Assembly (NCBI GenBank): GCA_903970515.1
Contig: CAJCJA010000013.1
Span: 1-32,883, forward strand
DNA from: Candidatus Saccharibacteria bacterium CG_4_10_14_0_2_um_filter_52_9
GTDB lineage: Bacteria > Actinomycetota > Acidimicrobiia > Acidimicrobiales > RAAP-2
Length of the DNA: 32,883 nucleotides
Direction of reading: 5' to 3'
The notes under the pieces were generated by a model. That model searched no databases. It was given only the letters and a program-made list of their open reading frames with translations, and was not told where the DNA came from. How positions within the stretch are numbered: the stretch's first letter is position 1; every line of letters begins with the position of its first letter. Positions 1 through 14,805 of this stretch are shown piece by piece. The translations under genes and the position numbers were made by a program.

Positions 1-407
<407 letters not shown>

Positions 408-491
408 AGTTTGATGTTCGTGCTCGTTCTAGGACGCTCAAAGAGCGGGTTCGCCCGTTCTGGTCGACGATGAGTCGATCGAGCGCATGGT
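408..491 (+). other. 23S-5S internal transcribed spacer with two hairpins
   Basis: This is the spacer between the two rRNAs. An 8-bp stem at 442-449/454-461 closes a TTCG tetraloop with one G-U pair. A second short stem, TCGAC/GTCGA, lies at 464-468/474-478. Such stems are typical of processing signals in rRNA precursors, but that role is inferred. I see no tRNA here. Confidence 0.6.
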
Positions 492-608
492 TTCCGGTGG
501 TTATGGCGGTGGAGATATACCTGTTCCCATTCCGAACACAGCAGTCAAGCCCACCTGCGCCGATGGTACTTGGGGGTCCCCCCCTGGGAGAGTAGGTCGC
601 CGCCGGGA
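492..608 (+). rRNA. 5S ribosomal RNA
   Basis: The 5S core is clear: the CCCATTCCGAACAC segment near 525-540, then CGCCGATGGTACTTGG and GGGAGAGTAGGTCGCCGCCGG. The two ends pair to form helix I (TTCCGGTGG at 492-500 with CCGCCGGGA at 600-608), which sets the boundaries and gives about 117 nt, the normal size. It follows the 23S gene as the last gene of an rrn operon. Confidence 0.96.
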
Positions 609-614
609 TTTCTT

Positions 615-646
615 GAAGAGCCCCCACCAATTGGTGGGGGCTCTTC
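615..646 (+). terminator. Perfect 16-bp inverted repeat, likely rrn terminator
   Basis: Positions 615-630 (GAAGAGCCCCCACCAA) are followed immediately by their exact reverse complement at 631-646. In RNA the central bases form the loop, leaving a very stable GC-rich stem just 6 nt after the 5S gene. No T-run follows, as is common for actinobacterial stem-type terminators. The symmetry could also stop transcription coming from the minus-strand gene that ends at 705. Confidence 0.85.
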
Positions 647-704
647 GCATTGCAGAATCGAACAACAAGTGTCGCCACGCGAAACTCGTGGCCGTATTCT
701 TGAC

Positions 705-1706
705 TTACTTTGTCGCGTCAAGAAATCGCAGCACTGCGCTCGTGGTCTCCTCGGGTCGTTCTTGCTGGATCCAATGACCGACGTCGTCGATCTCTATGAC
801 GCCGCGAAAGTCGGGGAGCAGATCGCTCATGGCTTCGGCGACACCCGCCATCATGAAACGCACGGGGTCGAGTGAACCCGTGAGGAACGCGATGGGCATG
901 GTGAGTGTCGACAGCGCGATGTCCTTGGAACGCCGCCAGTTCGCGTCGATGTTGCGATAGAAACTGAGCGGTCCGAAGAATCCTGACGTCGCAAAGGCCG
1001 CCGCAAAGGTATCGATGTCCTTCTCGCTCAACCAGCTCGGAAAGACCCCGGGAGCTTCGGCCAATGTACTGAGCAGCGTGGTGCCTTCGCGTGGGGCGGG
1101 TGTGAATGCCTTGCCGCTCTTCATGCCGTCACCCGAGGCGGAGTAGTAGAAGTCGCGTAGGAAGTGCCGCGTGTCACCCTCGAGTTCGGCCTCGGCAACG
1201 CCGACGGGCTGGAAATAGTTGATGTAGAAGAACTGCTCGGCGAAGACCGCGTCGTACATCTCGAGCGGGGCGCGGTGGGGTGTCGCGAGGGGCACGCTCA
1301 TGTTAAAAAGCGCGCGAACTCTACTTGGATGAAGTCGTGCCATCTCCCACAGCGCCAGCGCGCCCCAGTCGTGTCCGAGGAAGGTCGCTTGCTCGTAGCC
1401 GTAGTGATCGAGGAGTCCACAGAGATCCTCGGTGAGTCGGTCCGATCCGTAGTCGCTCACCTCGCGGGGACAGCTGCTCTCGCCGTAGCCCCTCCAGTCA
1501 AAGGCAATGGCGCGGTAGCCCGCGGTCCCGAGTGCGCTCAACTGGTGTCGCCATGAGTACCAGGTCTCTGGAAAACCGTGGCACATGACGACGGGGGGTG
1601 CGTCAATTGGTCCGTCGCTCACGACGTGGATCGTGAGCGCGTTGACGTTGATCAACTCATGATTGAATTCGTCCACCACTCGCTCGAATCTGCTCTCTCG
1701 TTGCAC
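705..1706 (-). CDS. Alpha/beta hydrolase, epoxide-hydrolase-like
   Basis: This 333-residue protein has the alpha/beta hydrolase fold of epoxide hydrolases and haloalkane dehalogenases. It shows the HGFPETWYSW oxyanion motif at residues 43-52 and the nucleophile elbow GHDWGA with Asp113, rather than the Ser of esterases. The probable catalytic His311 is in VGHWIQQERPEE near the C-terminus. The Asp nucleophile points to an alkyl-enzyme mechanism on epoxides or similar substrates, but the substrate is unknown. The start is a GTG at 1704-1706, and nearby in-frame GTG codons around residues 10-11 are alternatives. The gene is divergent from the TetR regulator at 1971 across 264 bp, so it is a natural candidate target of that regulator. 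It ends 59 bp from the rrn terminator. Confidence 0.85.
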   Translation of the reverse strand: MQRESRFERVVDEFNHELINVNALTIHVVSDGPIDAPPVVMCHGFPETWYSWRHQLSALGTAGYRAIAFDWRGYGESSCPREVSDYGSDRLTEDLCGLLDHYGYEQATFLGHDWGALALWEMARLHPSRVRALFNMSVPLATPHRAPLEMYDAVFAEQFFYINYFQPVGVAEAELEGDTRHFLRDFYYSASGDGMKSGKAFTPAPREGTTLLSTLAEAPGVFPSWLSEKDIDTFAAAFATSGFFGPLSFYRNIDANWRRSKDIALSTLTMPIAFLTGSLDPVRFMMAGVAEAMSDLLPDFRGVIEIDDVGHWIQQERPEETTSAVLRFLDATK

Positions 1707-1737
1707 GTGATTTGTTCACGACAGTAGCCGCCTTCGT

Positions 1738-1749
1738 CAAACGCGTTTG
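1738..1749. promoter_or_regulatory. 12-bp perfect palindrome, candidate TetR operator
   Basis: CAAACGCGTTTG is perfectly self-complementary and lies 31 bp upstream of the hydrolase start, in the only sizeable gap next to the tetR gene. Read on the minus strand its right edge runs into TTGACG, a -35-like hexamer. A related half (CGCGTTTT) follows at 1751-1758. The size and position suit a TetR-family operator, but binding is inferred. Confidence 0.4.
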
Positions 1750-1970
1750 GCGCGTTTTCTGCCTATCGATCCCTACGCGGGTCCGATTTCATTGAGTGCT
1801 GCGGCGCGTTAGAGGGCCGTGTCATTGCGCGACGACGCGGTGGTCCTAATGTACGAACTGGAGAATTCGCGGTGAAATCCCGATAAGTTGGTGGCGCACG
1901 GTTCGTCTCGCGCGGCCAGCGGTGATCGAGTGAGCGGGAATGTCGAGACGACAGCGTCAGGGAGAATCGC

Positions 1971-2642
1971 ATGGTTGTTGAGCACGAAGAGCAGCCCCCA
2001 CTGGAGCGTCGCTCGCGCGATCCCGAGCGGACGAAGGAAGAGATCCTCGTGGTCTCCACGCAGGAATTCGCGGACCGCGGCTTCGCGGGTGCTCGAGTGG
2101 ACGAGATCGCCAATAAGACCCGCACCACCAAGCGGATGATCTATTACTACTTCGGCTCCAAGGAACTGCTCTACATGGCCGCCCTCGAAAGGGCCTACGA
2201 GGACATTCGGGTGGTCGAAGCGAACGTCGACGTCGAGCACCTCGATCCGATTCGCGCGATACGACGACTCGCTGAGCTGACGTTCGATCGACACGAGGCA
2301 AATCCCAACTTCAGCCGCTTGATCAGTCAGGAGAACGTCCAGCGCGGGCAATTCGTGACCAAGGCGAGTGGCTTCCCTCGCCTCGAACGTCCGATTATCA
2401 AGATATTGGAACAAGTACTCGAGCGTGGGCGAGCCGAGGGTGTTTTCGTGCGCGACATCGACGCACTCGACGTGCACATGTTAATAAGTTCGTTCTGTTT
2501 CTTTCGCATCAACAACCGATTCACGTTCGCCGCGAGTTTCGGACGCAATCTCGTCGAACCGGATCGTCGCGCGATGTACCGCGAGATGATAGGCGACGTC
2601 GTCGTTGACTATCTCACGACACCCTCGCCCGAGGACCATTAG
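1971..2642 (+). CDS. TetR/AcrR family transcriptional regulator
   Basis: This is a 223-residue TetR-type repressor. The N-terminal DNA-binding part runs from about residue 20 (RTKEEILVVSTQEFADRGF) through the helix-turn-helix at about 43-62 (VDEIANKTRTTKRMIYYYFG). It ends with the SKELLYMA segment typical of the family. The rest is the all-helical ligand-binding and dimerisation domain; its ligand cannot be read from sequence. The ATG is supported by an AGGGAGA Shine-Dalgarno about 5 nt upstream. It is divergent from the hydrolase and convergent with ligC, whose stop is only 14 bp away. It could regulate the hydrolase, the lig operon or both. No IclR or LysR regulator, the usual controllers of pob and lig genes, is present in the window. 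Confidence 0.92.
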   Translation: MVVEHEEQPPLERRSRDPERTKEEILVVSTQEFADRGFAGARVDEIANKTRTTKRMIYYYFGSKELLYMAALERAYEDIRVVEANVDVEHLDPIRAIRRLAELTFDRHEANPNFSRLISQENVQRGQFVTKASGFPRLERPIIKILEQVLERGRAEGVFVRDIDALDVHMLISSFCFFRINNRFTFAASFGRNLVEPDRRAMYREMIGDVVVDYLTTPSPEDH

Positions 2643-2656
2643 TCTGGGTTTCGAAA

Positions 2657-4850
<2,194 letters not shown>

Positions 4851-4867
<17 letters not shown>

Positions 4868-5759
4868 CCTTCCAGTACAGGTGCATGGGATTGTCCACGA
4901 GCAACTTTTGTTGAGCCGTCGGCGTCGTGGCGATGCGAGGGATGAAATCGACCAACTTGCCGTCGTCGGGCATGAAGGATTTCAGGTTCGGATGTGGCCA
5001 GTCAGTGCCCCAGAGCACCCGGTCGGGGAAGTCGTCGATGATGCGCCGATAGAAGGGCACCGTGTCGTCGAAGCCCTCGGGCCCGGTAACGCTCAGTCGC
5101 TCCGGACAGGTGACCTTCGCCCACACGTTCTCATTCTCCTGCATGAAGCGCACGAAGAGTTGGAACGCCTCGCCGTCGACGCTTTGGGTGACGTCGGGTC
5201 GACCGAGGTGATCGACGACGAGCACCGTGGGGAACGAGGTGAACAGAGACCATTTCTCGGCGAGGTCTTGGGCTTCGAAGTACACCACGACGTGCCAGCC
5301 CAGGGGAGCGATCATCTCGGCGATGCGCAAGTAGTACGAATCTTCCTCAGGATCGACCAGTCGGCGAAGGTAGTTGAACCGCACGCCGCGCACGCCCGCC
5401 TCGTCGAGTTCTCGCAGCTGAGCCTCACTGAACGTCGGCTCGATCGTGGCGACGCCTCGAGCTCGCCCGTTCGAGGCGTACAGGGCATCGACCATGGCGT
5501 CGTTGTTGGCGCCGTGACACGTCGCTTGCACGACGACATTGCGGCTGAAGCCCAGGTGATCACGAAGCGCGAAGAGTTGATTCTTGCTGGCGTCACAAGG
5601 CGTGTACTTGCGCTCGGGAGCGAATGGGAACTCATCGCCCGGTCCAAAGACGTGACAGTGGGCGTCGACGGATCCGTCAGGTAGGACGAACGTCGGCACC
5701 GACGGGTCGGGGTCGAAGTAGAGCCAATCACTGTCGACGACGAAGGATGACACGCTCAT
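4851..5759 (-). CDS. ligI: 2-pyrone-4,6-dicarboxylate hydrolase
   Basis: LigI opens the lactone 2-pyrone-4,6-dicarboxylate to 4-oxalomesaconate. The 302-residue protein belongs to the amidohydrolase superfamily. It has HxH at His34/His36 (VDAHCHVFGP), His184 in VVDHLGRPD, and the base Asp253 in WGTDWPHPN, all as expected for the family. Other recognisable parts are FPFAPERKYTPCDA, VRGVRFNYLRRLVD and VTCPERLS. It lies between ligJ (ATGA overlap at 5756-5759) and ligA (17-bp overlap). In the pathway it takes the LigC product and supplies the substrate for LigU and LigJ. Confidence 0.96.
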
Positions 5760-6775
5760 CGACCCTGTTTCACGAGTAGACGCTCCAGTCGGGGATACAC
5801 CCGCCGCGCATTCGCGGAGTACACCTTGTCGCGGTCCTCATCGTCGAGCTTGAGTGCATCGACGTAGCGTTTGGTGTCATCAAAGTAGTGCCCGGTCGTT
5901 GGGTCGATGCCGCGCACCGCGCCCACCATCTCGGAGCCGAACAGGATGTTGTCGATGTCGATCACCTCGAAGAGAAGGTCGATACCTGCTTGGTGATAGA
6001 CGCACGTGTCAAAGAACACGTTGCCCATGAGGTGCGTCGCGAGGTCGGGTTTGTTGAGCATGTCAGCGAGCCCTCGGTATCGGCCCCAGTGGTAGGGAAC
6101 GGCGCCGCCGCCGTGGGGAATCACGAGACGAAGTTCGGGGAACGTAGAAAAAAGGTCGCCCTGAAGAAGTTGCATGAAGGCTGTCGTGTCAGCGTTCATG
6201 TAGTGGGCGCCGGTCGCGTGGAAATTGACGTTACAGCTGCTCGAGACGTGAATCATCGCGGGTACCTCAAGCTCGACCATCGCTTCGTACATCGGAAACC
6301 ACGAGGCGTCCGTCAGCGGGAGACCGTCCCAACGACCACCGCTCGGATCCGGACTCAGGTTGAGTCCGACGAAACCAAGTTCTTCGACGCACCGGCGAAG
6401 TTCCTTGATGGAATGCTCGACCGGTACCCCGGGGGATTGGGGGAGTTGACACGCACCAACGAATGTCGCGGGGAACAGATCAACGACGCGAGCGATCAGA
6501 TCGTTACACGCGCGCGACCAGGCGAGGCTCACGGCTTCGTTTCCAACGTGATGCTCCATCGCTGAGGCTCGTGGCGAGAAGATTGTCATGTCCGCGCCGC
6601 GCTCTCGCAAGAGACGCAATTGATTCTTCTCAATCGTTTCGACTATCTCTTCGTCGGAGATGACGGGGTAGGAGGGGAAGGGCTCGCCCGACGTGTAGGC
6701 GGCAACCTGGGCCGCGCGCCACAAGGTGTGCGCTTCGGGCGCGGTCGTGTAGTGCCCGTGGCAATCAATGATCAC
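5756..6775 (-). CDS. ligJ: 4-oxalomesaconate hydratase
   Basis: LigJ adds water to the enol form of 4-oxalomesaconate to give 4-carboxy-4-hydroxy-2-oxoadipate. It is an amidohydrolase-superfamily (amidohydrolase_2) protein of 339 residues. The metal-binding IIDCHGH is at residues 2-8. Segments shared with Sphingobium LigJ include RLLRERGADMTIFSPRASAM, IPHGGGAVPYHWGR, FFDTCVYHQ and ILFGSEMVGAVRGIDPTTGHYFDDTKRY. I chose the GTG at 6773-6775 over an ATG at 6811. The GTG places the HxH motif at the very N-terminus, as in known LigJ, and has GGAG at 6781-6784 with a 5-nt gap. It overlaps the end of ligU by 11 bp. Confidence 0.95.
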   Translation of the reverse strand: MIIDCHGHYTTAPEAHTLWRAAQVAAYTSGEPFPSYPVISDEEIVETIEKNQLRLLRERGADMTIFSPRASAMEHHVGNEAVSLAWSRACNDLIARVVDLFPATFVGACQLPQSPGVPVEHSIKELRRCVEELGFVGLNLSPDPSGGRWDGLPLTDASWFPMYEAMVELEVPAMIHVSSSCNVNFHATGAHYMNADTTAFMQLLQGDLFSTFPELRLVIPHGGGAVPYHWGRYRGLADMLNKPDLATHLMGNVFFDTCVYHQAGIDLLFEVIDIDNILFGSEMVGAVRGIDPTTGHYFDDTKRYVDALKLDDEDRDKVYSANARRVYPRLERLLVKQGR

Positions 6776-7868
6776 GTCGACTCCAAATTGAGCGCGGGAC
6801 GTACACGTCACCTCGCATGAGGAGTCGCGCGGTTCGTAGTAGCGCCGCGGACGTGATGTTCACGTCGTGCCCACTTACGGCGACGTCCATTGTCACGTCG
6901 AAATAACCCGAGGGGTGCTCGATCTGCAGGTTCGCCTCGCCCGACACAGTCGAGATCCCGCAGAGTTCGTTCGCCACGGACCCAGGAAGCAAACACGCGG
7001 TCGCGACCGACACCGCGCCGAAGACGCCGATCGCCTCGTGCACTCGCTTGGGAATGAAGGTTCGTGTCGTGACGACGCCACCGTGCTCGGCCTTGGCGAG
7101 CAGACTCATCTTGGGCACGGTCTTGGCACTGACGTCACCGAGATTCATCATGGTCCCCGCGGCGAGACGAAGCTCCTCCACGCGCGCGCAGACTGCCGCG
7201 TCCGCTTCAATCGTCGCGGGGTCCTCGTAACCGCTGAGCCCGACGTCGCTCGCGCGAAGACAGACAACCGGCATGCCGTTATCGACGCACGTGATCGCGA
7301 TGCCGTTGACGACGTCGAGGACGTGTCCGGTGGGCAAGAGGCTGCCGCAGGTCGAGCCTGCGATGTCGAGGAACTCAATCGGAATGGGCGCCGCCGAACC
7401 CGGGACGCCGTCGATCCGCGCGTCTCCGTCGTAGCGAACCTCGCCGTGGGGTGTTTGGATGCGCGCGACCGCGAGACTCTGGGTGTTCTCCATCCATATC
7501 CGTACGGACGTCACGTCGCCGCGGGGCTCGATGAGACCTTGGTCGAGGGCGAAAGGTCCAATGCCCGCGAGCAGATTGCCGCAATTTTGATTGTCCGATA
7601 CCTCGGCTCGGTCGGGCCACACCTGTAAGAACAGGTAGTCAACGTCGGCGTCAGGTCGCGTTGATCGACGGACGACGGCGACCTTTGACGTGAGCGGATG
7701 ACCGCCGCCGACGCCGTCAATCTCACGAACATCGGGCGAACCCATCGCGGCGAGCAGTACCCGGTCGCGCGTCGCGACGTCGTCGGGGAGATCGTCGGCG
7801 TGAAAGTACAACCCTTTCGAAGTTCCGCCCCTGATGAGCGAGGCCCGGATGGCGGTCTGCGAACTCAT
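6765..7868 (-). CDS. ligU: 4-oxalomesaconate tautomerase (PrpF family)
   Basis: LigU/GalD moves the double bond of 4-oxalomesaconate so that LigJ can hydrate it. The 367-residue protein is of the PrpF isomerase family (diaminopimelate-epimerase-like fold). It opens with [16 protein letters not shown] and carries [11 protein letters not shown] and SDNQNCGN. Lys62 and Cys96 sit where the Lys/Cys pair implicated in LigU-type isomerases is expected. The alternative name, 2-methylaconitate isomerase PrpF, is ruled out by the operon. The ATG overlaps the ligK stop as ATGA (7865-7868). The 3' end overlaps ligJ. Confidence 0.93.
6776..6784 (-). promoter_or_regulatory. Shine-Dalgarno that decides the ligJ start
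   Basis: Read on the minus strand this is GGAG, a 5-nt spacer, then GTG. It lies inside the 3' end of ligU and supports a GTG start at 6775 for ligJ over the upstream ATG at 6811, which would extend the protein beyond the family N-terminus. Confidence 0.6.
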
Positions 7869-8551
7869 TCGGGCGTCGTCTCCTCATAACGCAATCCCCG
7901 ATCGCGCAATTTGCTTCGCATGTCGTAGATGTCGAGACCCAATTCACCCGACGCAAGTCGCGACCTCTTGTCGCGCTCGTTGTTCTCGCGAAGCTCACAC
8001 GCTTCGATGACTCGCGCTGCGTCGTCACGCCGCACGACGACGACACCGTCGTCATCGCCGACGATCACGTCGCCCGGACGCACGTAGGCACCTGCACAGA
8101 CGATGGGAACTTGCACGTTCCCTGGCGTCTCCTTGACGGTTCCTTGCGCGGAGATGCATTTGGACCATACGGGAAAGTTCATCGTCGTGAGCTCGGCGAC
8201 ATCGCGCACGCCCGCGTCGATTACCAGTGCTCGCACGCCGTGGGCTCGCACACTCGTCGCGAGTAGTTCGCCGAAGTAGCCGTCATCGCACGGACTCGTG
8301 GGCGTGACGACGAGGATGTCACCGGGTTGCGCCTGTTCGACCGCAACGTGAATCGACCAATTGTCACCGGGCGCGACTTCGCAGGTGAGCGCGTTACCCG
8401 CGACTCGAACGGGGCGATAAATAGGGCGAAGGTGTGAGCCCACGAGACCGCGACGGCCCTGGGCTTCGTGGATCGTGGCGACGCCGTAATGACCCAGTTG
8501 GTCCACAATCTCCAACGCGGTGCGCGCGGTGTTCGTGACGACCACTGCCAT
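7865..8551 (-). CDS. ligK: 4-carboxy-4-hydroxy-2-oxoadipate aldolase / oxaloacetate decarboxylase
   Basis: LigK cleaves 4-carboxy-4-hydroxy-2-oxoadipate to pyruvate and oxaloacetate, the last step of the pathway. The 228-residue protein is of the RraA-like class II (metal-dependent) aldolase family. It has the GELLATS motif (Glu95) and the DAGVRD motif with Arg116 and Asp117, which bind substrate and metal in this family. RNase-E inhibitor RraA itself is shorter and would not fit a lig operon. It is the first gene of the operon. The ATG has a strong AGGGGGA Shine-Dalgarno at 8557-8563, and the promoter must lie in the 151-bp gap shared with divergent pobA. Confidence 0.94.
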
Positions 8552-8603
8552 TTCCGTCCCCCTACTGGGATGCGTCTCCCGTTGTACCGGCGCATCAGTC
8601 CCG

Positions 8604-8624
8604 GTTGATAATTAACTGAACAGT
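8604..8624 (+). promoter_or_regulatory. 21-bp element shared with livK upstream region (copy 1)
   Basis: This element lies in the ligK/pobA divergent region. It matches 9960-9980 at 16 of 21 positions; the pattern is GTT, 2 free, TAAT, 2 free, AC, 1 free, GAACAGT. Each 18-nt core starts GTT and ends GAAC, giving partial dyad symmetry. After it comes TACACT, a possible -10 box. It is a candidate binding site for a regulator of both catabolism and uptake. Confidence 0.5.
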
Positions 8625-8702
8625 ACACTACAAGATAAGGTGCACGAAAGGGTTTTTCGGCGGGTTGCGATCCGGTACTTGTGTTGAAGGTGGGACAACG
8701 AA

Positions 8703-9884
8703 ATGAAAGAGTTTCGCACGCAAGTGGCGATCGTGGGGGCGGGTCCAGCGGGGCTGTTGCTCGGGCACATCTTGCATCTCCAAGGGATCGAGAGCGTGAT
8801 CCTTGAGCACCGCAGTCGTGAGTACGTGGAGAAACGCGTGCGCGCCGGCGTGATCGAATTCGGAATCGCGAACCTGCTCGAGGACGTGGGCGTGGGCGGT
8901 CGGATGCGACGTGAAGGACTCGTGCATCGCGGTATTGAAATACGTTATGACCACAGCGCGCATCGAATCGCCTTAAGTGAGTTGGCCGACGGTCGCACGT
9001 ACACCGTCTACGGACAACAAGAGGTAGTGAAGGACCTCATTGCACTTCGTCTCGAACAGGGCGCAGCTCTGCACTTCGAAGCAGAAGTGTCGTCGATCGA
9101 GGACGTCACCACGAATGCACCATTCGTTCGTGCGAGCATGGATGGCGAAGACGTGCGCGTGCGCGCCGACTTCGTTGCCGGGTGTGACGGATCGTATGGC
9201 GCGTCACACCGAACGATCCCGGGTGAGGTTCTTCGTCGTTACGAACGTGTCTATCCGTTCTCGTGGTTGGGCATACTCGCCCAAGCGGCACCCGCCACCG
9301 AAGAACTGATCTACGGCCGGCACGAAAACGGTTTCGTCCTGTACTCGATGCGTTCGGCGAGCATCAGTCGTCTCTACCTAGGTGTGCGACCCGAGGACAC
9401 GTTAGAGCAGTGGTCCGATGATCGAATCTGGGATGAACTCACCGAAAGGCTTTCCACCGACGAGCGACCAGAAGTGAATCGTGGTCCGATCCTCGAACGT
9501 GGCATCACGGCAATGCGCAGCGTCGTCATCGAACCCATGCGATACGGTCGACTTTTTCTCGCGGGCGACGCCGCGCACATCGTGCCGCCCACGGGGGCGA
9601 AGGGAATGAACCTCGCCCTCGCCGACGTGCGCGTGCTCGCCGAAGCCTTCGATGCGTACTACTCGAAGAACGACGAGGTGCTCCTTGACGCCTATTCGGC
9701 CAAGTGCCTCGAACGGGTGTGGCGCGCGGAGGAGTTCTCCAACTACATGACGCAGATGCTGCACCCGAATGAGGACGACGCCTTCGAGAACGGGGTCCAA
9801 CGTGCGCGGTTACGACAGGCGACCCAGAATCGCGAGGCGGCCACGGTGCTCTCGCGCAACTACGTCGATCTCAATAGCCTGTGA
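8703..9884 (+). CDS. pobA: 4-hydroxybenzoate 3-monooxygenase
   Basis: PobA hydroxylates 4-hydroxybenzoate to protocatechuate using FAD, NAD(P)H and O2, and so feeds the lig operon. The 393-residue length is normal. The FAD-binding GAGPAG is at residues 12-17, followed by LLLGHILHLQGIESVILE. The second flavin motif GDAAHIVPPTGAKGMNLA is near residue 287. LIYGRHENGF contains the tyrosine that in Pseudomonas PobA activates the substrate phenol, and the C-terminal SRNYVDL carries the second active-site tyrosine. The loop HRSREYVEKRVRAG differs from the NADPH-preferring Pseudomonas enzyme, so cofactor choice is open. An ill-defined GGTGGGA Shine-Dalgarno precedes the ATG. It is divergent from ligK and followed by the importer genes. 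Confidence 0.96.
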   Translation: MKEFRTQVAIVGAGPAGLLLGHILHLQGIESVILEHRSREYVEKRVRAGVIEFGIANLLEDVGVGGRMRREGLVHRGIEIRYDHSAHRIALSELADGRTYTVYGQQEVVKDLIALRLEQGAALHFEAEVSSIEDVTTNAPFVRASMDGEDVRVRADFVAGCDGSYGASHRTIPGEVLRRYERVYPFSWLGILAQAAPATEELIYGRHENGFVLYSMRSASISRLYLGVRPEDTLEQWSDDRIWDELTERLSTDERPEVNRGPILERGITAMRSVVIEPMRYGRLFLAGDAAHIVPPTGAKGMNLALADVRVLAEAFDAYYSKNDEVLLDAYSAKCLERVWRAEEFSNYMTQMLHPNEDDAFENGVQRARLRQATQNREAATVLSRNYVDLNSL

Positions 9885-10098: not shown

Positions 10099-11307
10099 AT
10101 GAGACGAGGTAAGGGGAAACTCGCGACGATTGCAGTGGCATTTACGGCAATCGTCGCGTCGACCGTGTCAGTGGGTTTGGTGGGGGCGCAAGCAGGTAGC
10201 GCCGCGACCGCCTCGACATGGGTGATTGGCAATATCGGAACCTATAGCGGTGGCAACTCATCGAACTTCATTGGTGGGAACTTGTCGCTCGAAGCGTGGG
10301 CCGACTACACGAACGCCCACGGGGGTATCAATGGTCACAAGGTGAAGGTCATCTCTGACGATGACGCAGGTTCGCCGTCGACGGCGCTGAACGACGTGAA
10401 GCAGTTGGTCAACAACGATCACGTCTTGGCGATTGTGGGCGACAACAGTGGTGAGGACGCGAGCTTCCAGAGCTTCCTTACGGCGAACAACATTCCCGTC
10501 ATCGGGGGGAGTACGCCGCTGACGAGCTTCTTCATGTTTAAGAACTACTTCCCGGTGGGCACCACCTCGAATGAGTCGGTTCCGGACCTGCTGTTGTACG
10601 CGAAGAATGTGTTGCACCAGACGACCGGCGCGTACCTGTACTGTGTCGAGGCGCCGGTGTGCGCACAACTGCTGCCCGTCTACCAGGGCGCGTACAACGC
10701 GATTGGCGGCACGCTCGCGGTTTCGGAGACGACCTCAGTCGGCGATGCGAATTTCGACTCCCAGTGCCTCGCCGCACAATCAGCGAAAGCCCAGGACCTC
10801 GAGTTCGTCGGACCTTCGTTTGAGCTACCCGGCATCGCATCGGACTGCAACACGTTGGGCTATGACCCGACGCTGTTGAACGAAGACGTGGTCTTGACCC
10901 CGGCGCTCGCGACCCAACTGGGTTCATCGGCCGCGGTCTTCGCCTCGGACGCGTTCCCGTTCACGGCGACCAGCGGCCCAGCGGCGATCTACCACGCGGC
11001 GCTAGAGAAGTACGAGCCTTCGGTCTTGAACCCCAAGACCTTCACGCAGAACGATGCCGACTCGTGGGCTTCGGGTGAACTCTTCGAGGCGGCAGCGAAA
11101 GCGGGCCACCTCGGCAACAACCCGACGCGGGCGCAACTGATCGCGGGCCTGTACAAGTTGAAGGGCGACACCTTGGGAGGCCTTACGCCGCCATTGACGT
11201 TCAACAAGAACAAGGCGAACTCGGTGAGTTGCATTGACATCGTCGACGTTGACAACGGCAGCATCGAACTACCCCAAGGTTTGACGCCGTACTGCCCGGC
11301 ATCGTAG
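10099..11307 (+). CDS. ABC transporter substrate-binding protein (LivK/branched-chain type)
   Basis: This is the extracellular solute-binding protein (402 residues) of a LivKHMGF-type importer. Residues 1-39 form a Sec signal peptide: basic RRGKGK, a hydrophobic core, and cleavage after AGSAATA. No lipobox cysteine is seen, so it would be secreted or anchored otherwise. The mature part begins VIGNIGTYSG and has the periplasmic-binding fold signature ADYTNAHGGINGHKVKVISDDDAGSPSTALNDVKQLV and the hinge region IPVIGGSTPLTS. A good Shine-Dalgarno (GGGGGA) lies 5 nt before the ATG. It lies downstream of pobA and shares an upstream element with the lig/pob promoter region. This suggests an aromatic acid rather than an amino acid as ligand, but the ligand is inferred. 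Confidence 0.9.
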   Translation: MRRGKGKLATIAVAFTAIVASTVSVGLVGAQAGSAATASTWVIGNIGTYSGGNSSNFIGGNLSLEAWADYTNAHGGINGHKVKVISDDDAGSPSTALNDVKQLVNNDHVLAIVGDNSGEDASFQSFLTANNIPVIGGSTPLTSFFMFKNYFPVGTTSNESVPDLLLYAKNVLHQTTGAYLYCVEAPVCAQLLPVYQGAYNAIGGTLAVSETTSVGDANFDSQCLAAQSAKAQDLEFVGPSFELPGIASDCNTLGYDPTLLNEDVVLTPALATQLGSSAAVFASDAFPFTATSGPAAIYHAALEKYEPSVLNPKTFTQNDADSWASGELFEAAAKAGHLGNNPTRAQLIAGLYKLKGDTLGGLTPPLTFNKNKANSVSCIDIVDVDNGSIELPQGLTPYCPAS

Positions 11308-11365
11308 GAACCTCGTCGTACGCCATTCGTAGGAAATAAGAACACGGACATTGAAAACTAGGCAT

Positions 11366-11419
11366 GGCGTCGATGATCAGAAAAGATAGAGAATGCTCCC
11401 TTTTCTGATCATCGGCGTC
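11366..11419 (+). promoter_or_regulatory. 20-bp hairpin enclosing the start codon of the fused transporter gene
   Basis: Arms 11366-11385 and 11400-11419 are complementary over 20 positions (18 Watson-Crick and two G-U pairs), with 15 uninterrupted Watson-Crick pairs next to the loop. The 14-nt loop at 11386-11399 contains the GAGA ribosome-binding segment and the ATG at 11393. An inner GAG/CTC stem closes an AATG tetraloop over the start codon. In mRNA this would hide or present the start site, so it is a candidate translational or attenuation control. No T-run follows, so it is not a standard terminator. Confidence 0.7.
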
Positions 11420-14056
11420 GTGTCGGGTTCGATTTACGGAATGGCGGCGGTGGGGCTCGTCCTGAGTTATCGCACCTCAGGAATCTTCAACTTCGCCCAC
11501 GGCGCACTCGCCACGCTCGCCGCGTACGTCTTCTATTGGCTCCACTATTCACACGGCATGCCCTGGCCCTACGCGGCATTGATTGCGGTCGTACCGTTGA
11601 GCGTCGCGTTGGGCTTCAGTCTGGAAGGTTTCGCCCGAATCCTGGCGCGTTCAAGTTTGATCCTCCAGGTCGTGGGTACCGTGGGACTACTGCTCATCAT
11701 CGAGGCGGCGTGCACGCAGTGGTACGGGTCGAACGGTTCGTTCTATCCGGCGTTCTTGTCATTACACACCTTCGCGATTGGTGGCACGTTCGTCACCGTG
11801 AGTGACATCATCGTCGTCGCCATCTCCATCGTCTCGACCGTCTTGTTGTCGCTCCTACTTAAATTCACTCGGTTGGGTACGGCGATGCGCGCCGTCGTCG
11901 ACGATCCCGACCTGCTGTCGATCTCCGGCATCAATCCCATCAGCGTGCGCCGCGCCGCGTGGGTCATCGGAAGTTTTCTCGTCACGATGTCGGGTCTCTT
12001 GCTCGCGCCCAATCTCGGACTCGACGCGACCTCGCTCACGTTGCTCGTCGTGCAGGCCTTTGGTGCCGCGGCGATCGGACGTTTCCAGAGCCTCCCGTGG
12101 ACGTGGGTGGGCGGCATCGTCATCGGGGTCGCCGCCAGTCTCGCGACCAAGTACTTCACCTCGGTCAACATCTTTTCCGGATTACCCTCGGCGATCCCCT
12201 TCATCATCTTGTTCGGGGTGCTCGTCCTCGTGCGCCAGCGCGGGTCCATTGATTCATCGACGAGGCGAGCGAGTCGCGAACTGGCGCCGACGAATTTACC
12301 CTTCCAGTTCCAACTCTCCGGAGCGGTCGTGGTGGTGGGTGCGTTGATCGCCGTACCGTTCGTCTTTCCCGACTACCTCACGGCGTGGATGGGCGTGTTG
12401 ACGTTCGTGATGCTGTTGGGTTCGCTCGGTTTGCTCGTTCGCATCTCACGCCAAGTCTCGCTGTGCCAGATCACCTTCGCCGCCATTGGCGCGGTCGCGT
12501 TCTCACGATTCGCGAGTGCGGGCGTACCGTGGTTGTTGGCGCTGTTGTTGGCGGGCGTGTTCGTGGTTCCGATCGGCGCGCTCCTCGCCCTACCCGCCGT
12601 ACGTCTCTCGGGTCTGTACCTGGCCCTCGCGACATTGGGTTTCGGACTCTTAGTCCAGACAATGTTCTATGACTCCTCGTGGATGTTCGGCATCGAGAAC
12701 TTGGGCATTCCAATGCCACGACCGCATCTGAGCTGGCTGCCGGTCGACAGTGATCGCGGGTTCTACTTCCTCATTCTTTTCTTCGTGGTCTTGTCGACCG
12801 TCTTCACGGTGTGGCTCATTCGAGGTCGGCTCGGAGGATTGCTACGCGTCCTTGGTGAGTCACCGCTCACCCTTGAGGCGTTCGGTGTGAACACCCTCGT
12901 GACGCGCATTCTCGTATTTTGCCTCTCGGCATTTCTCGCCGCCATCGCGGGCGCCTTGTCCGGGAGTGCTTTGGGCACGGTGACGGGTCAGAACTTCGTG
13001 CCCCTGACGTCGCTCAATCTCTTTGTCATCGTCGTGATCGCGGCGTTTGGTGAACCGTGGTTCGCGCTCTTTGGCGCGTTGCTGGTGGGACTCATCCCCG
13101 CGTACTTCACCTCCCAAAGCGCGACCGACATCTTGCAATTGGCGTTCGGGTTGGGTGCACTCACGTACTCGATGGGCTTGGTGCCGAAGCGTCCCAAGTT
13201 CGTCGAGCGACTCGCCGAAGTCGCGGCCGAACGCGCGCGACGAAAGGCACCGCTCGCGGCGATTGCCAACGACCAGAGTAAGGACCTTGCGACGACACTC
13301 GACGCGAAGGGCGTCACGGTCCGCTTCGGGGGACTGGTCGCCGTGGACAACGTCAGCGTGCACGCGAGTACCGGCAAGGTGACGGGCGTGATCGGGCCCA
13401 ACGGTGCGGGAAAGACGACATTGTTCAATGCATGTTCGGGACTGAACGCGCCGAGCTCAGGCACCATCGTGCTCGGCGACGATGACGTCTCGGGGCGGCG
13501 CCCTTCGGTGCGGGCGCGCCTTGGACTCGGGCGCACGTTCCAGCAAGTGCAGCTTTGTGATTCGTTGAGCGTCGAAGAGAACGTGAGGATCGGGGCCGAG
13601 GGGGGACTCGTCGGTGCGAGCGCATTCCGACACCTCTTTCGTGGTCGCTCGCAGTCAGCACTGGTCGCGGGACGCAGTCGCGAGGCGCTCGCGCTCGTGG
13701 GCATTGAGCATCTGGCCTACCGCCCAGTGAGCACGCTACCCACGGGTCAACGTCGACTCGTCGAACTGGCGCGATGTCTCGCTGGTCGATTCACGCTACT
13801 GCTGCTCGACGAGCCCTCCTCGGGGCTCGACGCCCAAGAGACGAGTGACTTCGGTGCGCTGCTTCGCCGAGTAGTCGCGGAACGCGACATCGGGATCTTG
13901 CTCATTGAACACGACTTGTCGCTGACCATGAACGTGTGCGACGAGCTCTACGTATTGGACTTTGGAAGTCTCATCTATCAGGGAACGCCCGACGACGCCC
14001 GCAACTCTCCGAGTGTGCAAGCGGCGTACCTTGGTGACGCGGTGCTGCAATCATGA
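11393..14056 (+). CDS. Fused branched-chain-type ABC importer: permease LivH + permease LivM + ATPase LivG
   Basis: A single 887-residue protein joins three usually separate subunits. Residues 1-~290 are a LivH-type permease (GVVSGSIYGMAAVGLVLSYRTSGIFNFAHGALA). Residues ~305-610 are a LivM-type permease (LTFVMLLGSLGLLVRISRQVSLCQITFAAIGA, and ALPAVRLSGLYLALATLGFGLL). Residues ~635-887 are the LivG ATPase, with Walker A GPNGAGKTT near 668, Walker B LLLLDEPSSGLD, and the H-loop IEHD. The signature is LPTGQRR rather than LSGGQ. There is no stop or frame change at the junctions, so I read it as a true fusion. The only upstream candidate ATG is blocked by an in-frame TAG at 11387. It should pair with the separate LivF ATPase to make a membrane complex with two ATPase domains. 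Confidence 0.93.
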   Translation: MLPFLIIGVVSGSIYGMAAVGLVLSYRTSGIFNFAHGALATLAAYVFYWLHYSHGMPWPYAALIAVVPLSVALGFSLEGFARILARSSLILQVVGTVGLLLIIEAACTQWYGSNGSFYPAFLSLHTFAIGGTFVTVSDIIVVAISIVSTVLLSLLLKFTRLGTAMRAVVDDPDLLSISGINPISVRRAAWVIGSFLVTMSGLLLAPNLGLDATSLTLLVVQAFGAAAIGRFQSLPWTWVGGIVIGVAASLATKYFTSVNIFSGLPSAIPFIILFGVLVLVRQRGSIDSSTRRASRELAPTNLPFQFQLSGAVVVVGALIAVPFVFPDYLTAWMGVLTFVMLLGSLGLLVRISRQVSLCQITFAAIGAVAFSRFASAGVPWLLALLLAGVFVVPIGALLALPAVRLSGLYLALATLGFGLLVQTMFYDSSWMFGIENLGIPMPRPHLSWLPVDSDRGFYFLILFFVVLSTVFTVWLIRGRLGGLLRVLGESPLTLEAFGVNTLVTRILVFCLSAFLAAIAGALSGSALGTVTGQNFVPLTSLNLFVIVVIAAFGEPWFALFGALLVGLIPAYFTSQSATDILQLAFGLGALTYSMGLVPKRPKFVERLAEVAAERARRKAPLAAIANDQSKDLATTLDAKGVTVRFGGLVAVDNVSVHASTGKVTGVIGPNGAGKTTLFNACSGLNAPSSGTIVLGDDDVSGRRPSVRARLGLGRTFQQVQLCDSLSVEENVRIGAEGGLVGASAFRHLFRGRSQSALVAGRSREALALVGIEHLAYRPVSTLPTGQRRLVELARCLAGRFTLLLLDEPSSGLDAQETSDFGALLRRVVAERDIGILLIEHDLSLTMNVCDELYVLDFGSLIYQGTPDDARNSPSVQAAYLGDAVLQS

Positions 14057-14805
14057 CGCCAGCGAAGACTGAGGACCAAGCGACGTCGTTGGACCACGAC
14101 TCAGCGCTCCCGACACCGCTGCTGGAATTGAGGGGCGTGGGCGCCGCTTACGGCGACACCGTAGTGTTACGCGACTTCAACCTCGTGGTACCGGCGCGAT
14201 CGGTGGTGACGCTGCTTGGTCCGAACGGCGCGGGAAAGACCACGGTGATGCGCCTCGTCTCTGGCACCCTCAAGCCGGTTGCGGGCAACATCTTTCTCAA
14301 CGGCGCCGACGTGACGTCGAGTGCCGCGCACGCGAGGACCGCTAAGGGCGTCTGTCTCATTCCCGAGGGTCGGGGGATCTTTCGCTCGTTGAGCGTTCGA
14401 GAGAATCTCGAATTGTTTCGCCCGAGCACGTCGCGCGACATTTCTATCGACGCAGTACTCGAAGTGTTCCCGGTCCTCGCCGAGCGACTCGGACAAATCG
14501 CGGGCACCCTCTCGGGAGGGGAGCAACAGATGCTCGCCTTGTCGCGCGCCTTCTTCGCGAAACCCGCGATCGTGCTGGTCGACGAGGTCTCCATTGGCTT
14601 GGCGCCAAAGATCGTCGACCAGATCTTCGAGATACTTCGTCGTCTGGCGAGCGAGGGCGTCAGTCTGCTCATCGTCGAGCAGTACGTACGTCGCGCCCTC
14701 GACCTCGCGGACACCGTGTATCTTCTCAATCGCGGTGAGATCGTGCTGCAGGGTTCGACAAAGGACGTCGCCTATGAGGACGTCGCTGACGCGTACCTGC
14801 GATGA
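14053..14805 (+). CDS. Branched-chain-type ABC transporter ATPase (LivF)
   Basis: This is the second ATP-binding subunit (250 residues) of the importer. It shows Walker A GPNGAGKTT near residues 57-65, a Q-loop in the CLIPEGRGIFRSLSVRENLELF stretch typical of LivF, the signature LSGGEQQMLALSRAF and Walker B IVLVDEVSIGLAP. The N-terminal ~20 residues are extra and polar. The ATG overlaps the stop of the fused permease gene as ATGA, so the two are translationally coupled and their products are expected in near-equal amounts. It is cytoplasmic and peripheral to the membrane. Confidence 0.95.
   Translation: MTPAKTEDQATSLDHDSALPTPLLELRGVGAAYGDTVVLRDFNLVVPARSVVTLLGPNGAGKTTVMRLVSGTLKPVAGNIFLNGADVTSSAAHARTAKGVCLIPEGRGIFRSLSVRENLELFRPSTSRDISIDAVLEVFPVLAERLGQIAGTLSGGEQQMLALSRAFFAKPAIVLVDEVSIGLAPKIVDQIFEILRRLASEGVSLLIVEQYVRRALDLADTVYLLNRGEIVLQGSTKDVAYEDVADAYLR

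Follow-up and report, generated by a model that had tools for sequence, protein, structure and literature searches.

A long hairpin enclosing the start codon of a fused LivH-LivM-LivG importer gene: most likely a shifted variant of the intercistronic stem-loops that follow binding-protein genes

Introduction

What does a long RNA stem do when the start codon of an importer's membrane part lies in its loop? The locus considered here is part of a contig of 32,883 nt (the whole of the analysed DNA, referred to below as the window) from an actinobacterial draft genome of 1.97 Mb. In this window, a gene for a Liv-type binding protein is followed by a gene for a fused importer, whose ATG is enclosed by a hairpin with one non-coding and one coding arm. 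We asked how exceptional this structure is, whether it is kept in relatives, whether stem-loops occur at the corresponding place in other importer operons of the genus, and which of several explanations accounts best for it.

Results

The importer genes and the parts of the hairpin

The features needed below are as follows.

10099..11307, + strand: gene for a livJ-type substrate-binding protein of 402 aa (Pfam Peripla_BP_6, 145.9 bits)
11308..11392, + strand: gap of 85 nt between the binding-protein stop and the livH start
11355..11385, + strand: non-coding left arm (pairing unbroken from 11361; the window's outermost pair is 11356/11429)
11364..11408, + strand: candidate leader ORF of 14 codons, ATG...TGA, read from the sequence; it passes through the left arm and on past the livH start
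11386..11399, + strand: apical part of 14 nt (GAG 11389-11391 / CTC 11396-11398, loop AATG 11392-11395)
11393..14056, + strand: fused LivH-LivM-LivG importer gene, 887 aa
11400..11430, + strand: right arm of the hairpin, coding for LivH residues 3-13
14053..14805, + strand: LivF-type ATPase gene, overlapping the end of the fused gene

The hairpin comprises an unbroken run of 25 pairs between 11361-11385 and 11400-11424, including four G-U pairs. It is longer than its earlier coordinates indicated: beyond one A.G mismatch, four further pairs extend it to 11356/11429, and 29 of the 31 columns across 11355-11385/11400-11430 are paired in the window version. The earlier note had described two 20-nt arms, one non-coding and the other coding for the beginning of LivH, and an inner GAG/CTC stem placing the ATG of a fused transporter gene in a tetraloop. 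Each of these parts was recovered. Positions 11366-11385 and 11400-11419 pair at 20 of 20 positions (18 Watson-Crick pairs and two G-U pairs, 11367/11418 and 11370/11415), the right arm is the coding one, the inner stem closes an AATG tetraloop that carries the ATG at 11393-11395, and the gene is a single ORF of 887 aa that carries an ABC ATPase domain in addition to two BPD_transp_2 stretches.

The gene pobA, encoding 4-hydroxybenzoate 3-monooxygenase, adjoins the importer, and protocatechuate 4,5-cleavage genes also lie upstream. An aromatic acid is therefore a plausible substrate.

Fold strength in the genomic background

The folding energy predicted for the 54-mer was -33.6 kcal/mol, compared with -11.8 ± 2.5 kcal/mol for shuffled sequences (z -8.8; 0 of 200 shuffles as good). 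In a 201-nt context the same helix was retained in the minimum-energy fold (z -6.0). For the genomic background, the window and 20 stretches of the same genome (305,762 bases, ~306 kb) were scanned for ungapped stems with loops of 3-40 nt. The livH hairpin was the top-scoring stem of this sample, with runners-up at 54 and 50. It also ranked first, with a score of 57, among 185 start-codon regions of ORFs in these bases (minimum ORF length 200 aa), the next of which scored 39. These results bear out the initial view that such pairing is very unlikely to arise by chance.

The predicted cost of opening the start region (-18 to +15) was 24.9 kcal/mol in the window and 28.6 kcal/mol in a second version of the element described below (L034), compared with 15.1 ± 4.0 kcal/mol and a maximum of 23.1 kcal/mol for 68 other start regions, within a set of 71 rows of which at least one (L143) is not a livH gene. 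No other start region of the set has a cost as high as these two, so initiation would be expected to meet an additional brake.

Scanning the window with Rfam at gathering thresholds returned rRNA matches only, and no riboswitch or other family at the hairpin. Two further candidates were rejected. A repeat element of the REP or MITE-like kind did not fit, a 161-nt query finding no match in the same genome other than itself and its reverse strand; for a promoter inside the loop, the promoter scan gave no promoter-like site, and inspection by eye revealed no shared -10-like sequence.

Conservation and covariation

Relatives of the element were sought in 99 genomes of the genus, 172 of the family, samples of 397 from the order and 395 from the class, and in one GTDB contig scan. 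Only two distinct versions were found across the contig scan and all of the genus, family, order and class searches. Some DNA match was present in 30 of the 99 genus genomes; the whole 1,001-base query was present in three, namely the genome of the window itself, G059 (99%) and G046 (80% nucleotide identity), and the remaining matches were pieces of 26-100 bases. The hairpin of G059 is identical to that of the window. That of G046 (locus L034) has 29 contiguous pairs and keeps the ATG between its arms despite a 9-nt insertion after the ATG; the protein start lies three codons earlier, the apical sequence is different, and the first 47 nt of the 85-nt livJ-livH gap have diverged. The left arm, whose absence or lack of pairing in close relatives, with no compensatory change, had been named in the earlier note as one finding that would speak against the element, is present and paired in both G059 and G046.

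Over the 31 aligned columns, the window and G046 differ at eight positions of the left arm and four of the right arm, the latter all synonymous. The window has 29 paired columns and G046 has 30: column 11355 is paired in G046 only, and one pair, 11384/11401, is lost there. Each of the eight left-arm substitutions preserves or creates a pair. In three columns both partners were exchanged (11357/11428, A-U to U-A; 11378/11407, C-G to G-C; 11360/11425, A.G to G-C), and the hairpin as a whole is kept. The covariation rests on these three double changes, since only two distinct versions are known. When the eight left-arm substitutions were placed at random, with transition biases of 1 to 8, the observed pairing was matched in at most 1e-5 of the draws from the window to G046 and reached in 0.0004-0.002 of the draws in the reverse direction, these chance figures being somewhat optimistic because the two structures themselves supplied the 31 columns.

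The departures from Watson-Crick pairing are informative about the form in which the stem is maintained. Both versions together contain 11 distinct departures, of which eight are G-U (four of these shared), and in the inner 23 columns, a count made after the fact, all seven departures are G-U. The chance of at least 8 of 11 is 0.009 if one departure in three is expected to be G-U, and 0.11 if one in two is. Because this expected share varies with the transition bias (0.18-0.54), the G-U excess is moderate evidence for an RNA. Taken with the retention of the stem at 80% identity and the compatibility of every left-arm change, it agrees with the earlier suggestion that the RNA form matters.

In the coding arm, 4 of 11 codons carry a synonymous change, compared with 381 of 782 in the gene, and 209 of 788 windows of equal size are as low. 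Synonymous sites of this arm are thus not unusually conserved, which fits a non-coding arm that follows the coding arm; neither form of constraint, on RNA or on DNA, explains the synonymous change well. The next orthologues, with about 43-50% protein identity, have no start-enclosing stem. The hairpin is exceptional in the scanned sequence, and two species have the start codon between its arms.

Stem-loops behind other binding-protein genes of the genus

Ninety PF13458 gene ends of the genus were sampled among the matches listed (30 loci and 60 further picked ones). A stem scoring at least 30 was present within 150 nt of 64 of them (26/30 and 38/60). Background ORF ends in the sample of the window's own genome yielded such a stem in 12 of 189 cases, or 3 of 96 where the next gene is co-directional; where the gap measured 60-200 nt, one of 20 was positive, and this one must be livJ itself.

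Downstream of the sampled ends, livH was recognised in 14 of 30 and 21 of 60 cases, its start in the first 30-locus set being estimated from a motif. All 15 livJ-livH gaps longer than 100 nt contain a stem scoring at least 28, which ends before the livH start and at least 42 nt upstream of it. Where the gap is shorter than 30 nt, one of 20 sampled junctions has a stem, which is located inside codons, and many such transporters of the genus therefore run without one. Stem-loops between binding-protein and livH genes are thus usual in the genus when the gap is long. At the other binding-protein/livH junction of the same genome (contig C41), an 18-bp stem lies between the genes at +25 to +63.

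The pair of genes is the same at these junctions and at the livH hairpin, and the 5' arm lies at a similar distance from the binding-protein stop, +7 to +43 there compared with +47 and +48 (outermost) here. The stems of the other long-gap junctions end before the livH start, whereas the livH hairpin spans it. Among 29 start regions of more distant homologues, for which the upstream gene was not confirmed as a binding-protein gene, eight have a stem scoring at least 28, every one of them before the start; in one of the 29 (L093) a weaker stem, scoring 25, spans the start.

Long stem-loops of up to 24 pairs and without U tracts follow most of the sampled Liv-type binding-protein genes (for example L177, 1453-1491; L198; L220). 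In L279 a 16-pair stem (224-260) lies in the first codons of livH, closely behind the binding-protein gene; as a case of a stem overlapping the livH start it was rejected, the stem being inside codons and the true start further upstream.

Discussion

A hairpin that probably sets the ratio of binding protein to permease

We consider it probable (roughly 0.55) that the hairpin acts in cis, as RNA, in a livJ-livHMG-livF transcript, and that its effect is to raise the amount of binding protein above that of the permease. Most likely it is a form of the known intercistronic stem-loop that has been shifted over the livH start codon. Such a stem may cap the 3' end of the livJ mRNA against 3'-5' exonucleases or cause partial termination, as in malE-malF and the clostridial importers; since it also encloses the ribosome-binding region, it would lower livHMG initiation in readthrough RNA. 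If anything opens the stem, it could be leader-ORF ribosomes, a helicase or RNase III, and a trigger is unnecessary if permease output is constantly low. Against this explanation stand the small number of double changes, the ordinary level of synonymous change in the coding arm, the lack of a start-enclosing stem in orthologues at about 45-50% identity, and the many short-gap junctions that have no stem. Near-complete sequestration would also keep the supply of an essential gene product low if the stem were never opened. Capping, termination, a translation brake and RNase III cleavage have the same direction of effect and look alike by sequence; a neutral origin is the exception.

The earlier note knew of nothing similar described for Liv importers. 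As stated this does not stand, intercistronic stem-loops that skew expression towards the binding protein over the permease being reported in the accessible text of PMC5927463 and PMC9045158. The 3' protective hairpins of malE-malF, an example of differential operon decay (PMC5927463, accessible text), likewise lie at the boundary between binding-protein and permease genes of a polycistronic importer operon. The livH locus shares with them a stable stem-loop between these genes, kept in G046 and G059, and differs in that the stem itself encloses the start codon and the ribosome-binding region. The internal terminators of clostridial ABC importers, as described in the accessible text of PMC9045158, resemble it as single stem-loops after the binding-protein gene with no anti-structure partner, and some of their types have few U residues; they are intergenic, whereas the livH stem is half coding and has no U tract. 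The enclosure of the start codon is the feature that remains unusual.

The data also agree with the idea that permease and binding protein are controlled separately. In this little-studied actinobacterial genus, long gaps behind Liv-type binding-protein genes generally contain a stem-loop, which offers a way to test, beyond E. coli and Clostridia, how importers keep their binding protein in excess. The livH locus adds a compact example, backed by covariation, of a single stem that could both cap the binding-protein mRNA and bury the permease start codon.

Alternative explanations

A neutral inverted repeat, in which a past template switch reverse-copied the livH start and replication errors have since kept the arms matched without any function, is an unlikely account. 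Template switching is described as homogenising the arms of inverted repeats (accessible text of PMC7202029 and PMC8604942), which would give matched double changes; synonymous change is not reduced in the coding arm, and with no outgroup the changes carry no direction. DNA correction yields Watson-Crick partners, yet most departures in the stem are G-U, which is moderate evidence against such upkeep, and junction stem-loops recur in unrelated sequence. Neutral upkeep by template switching is weakened by these points. A recent inversion of this kind, as proposed in the earlier note, is not supported, because the element predates the divergence of two species that share 80% nucleotide identity.

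It is rather unlikely that the hairpin is an internal transcription terminator or attenuator, where a partial stop of RNA polymerase would keep permease mRNA scarce and the enclosure of the start would be incidental. Terminators downstream of binding-protein genes were demonstrated with reporters in Ruminiclostridium, some of them nearly without a U-rich tract (PMC9045158, accessible text), and the junction stems of the genus are long and at the same place. The livH hairpin has no U tract, the 12 nt after the stem containing five scattered T in both versions (1-4 T at 16 other junction loci, counted for L215 after its best weak stem). A consensus terminator scan of the window gave no terminator at the hairpin, and ending within the codons of the next gene is less usual for a terminator.

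A regulated translational switch, in which translation of the leader ORF or cleavage by RNase III would open or destroy the stem under some condition and so turn the permease on or off, appears doubtful. In its favour, the candidate leader ORF passes through the left arm in both species, RNase III is encoded in the genome, and a stem of 25-29 pairs has a length suitable for that enzyme. The candidate ORF lacks a clear Shine-Dalgarno sequence, and its length and stop differ between the species: the G046 frame has a GTG start and ends in ATGA, its TGA overlapping the livH ATG, whereas the frame in the window ends within the right arm. Coupling through RNA unfolding is described in the accessible text of PMC12548453, where the downstream start regions of the MS2 lysis gene and of rpmI-rplT also lie within repressive hairpins. 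In the present locus the livJ stop and the stem are 48 nt apart, and livJ ribosomes should therefore not reach or open it, and only the hypothetical leader ORF could. The more specific proposal of a regulated start-codon gate is improbable. According to it, the fused permease would stay silent in readthrough RNA until a condition linked to aromatic use opened the stem, and leader-ORF ribosomes or RNase III would do the opening, so that binding protein and permease would be controlled separately from one transcript. Literature searches gave no published example of a Liv-type importer with such a gate.

A DNA element, whether a cruciform or an operator bound by a dimeric regulator, would account for the inverted symmetry and is very improbable, as arms of 25-30 nt that tolerate G-U without Watson-Crick symmetry and differ in sequence in G046 ill suit a protein operator, and no promoter-like site lies nearby.

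Other observations

The second strongest hairpin in the sample of the same genome (L146, 2138-2191, contig C21) is a 23-pair stem around AAAGGGTACTTGACAT. Positions 1-9884 of the window hold the end of an rRNA operon (the 3' part of 23S, and 5S) and, after it, the protocatechuate 4,5-cleavage genes, which lie on the minus strand. A 393-aa ORF occupies the position of pobA in G059, and a different ORF lies upstream of livJ on the G046 contig.
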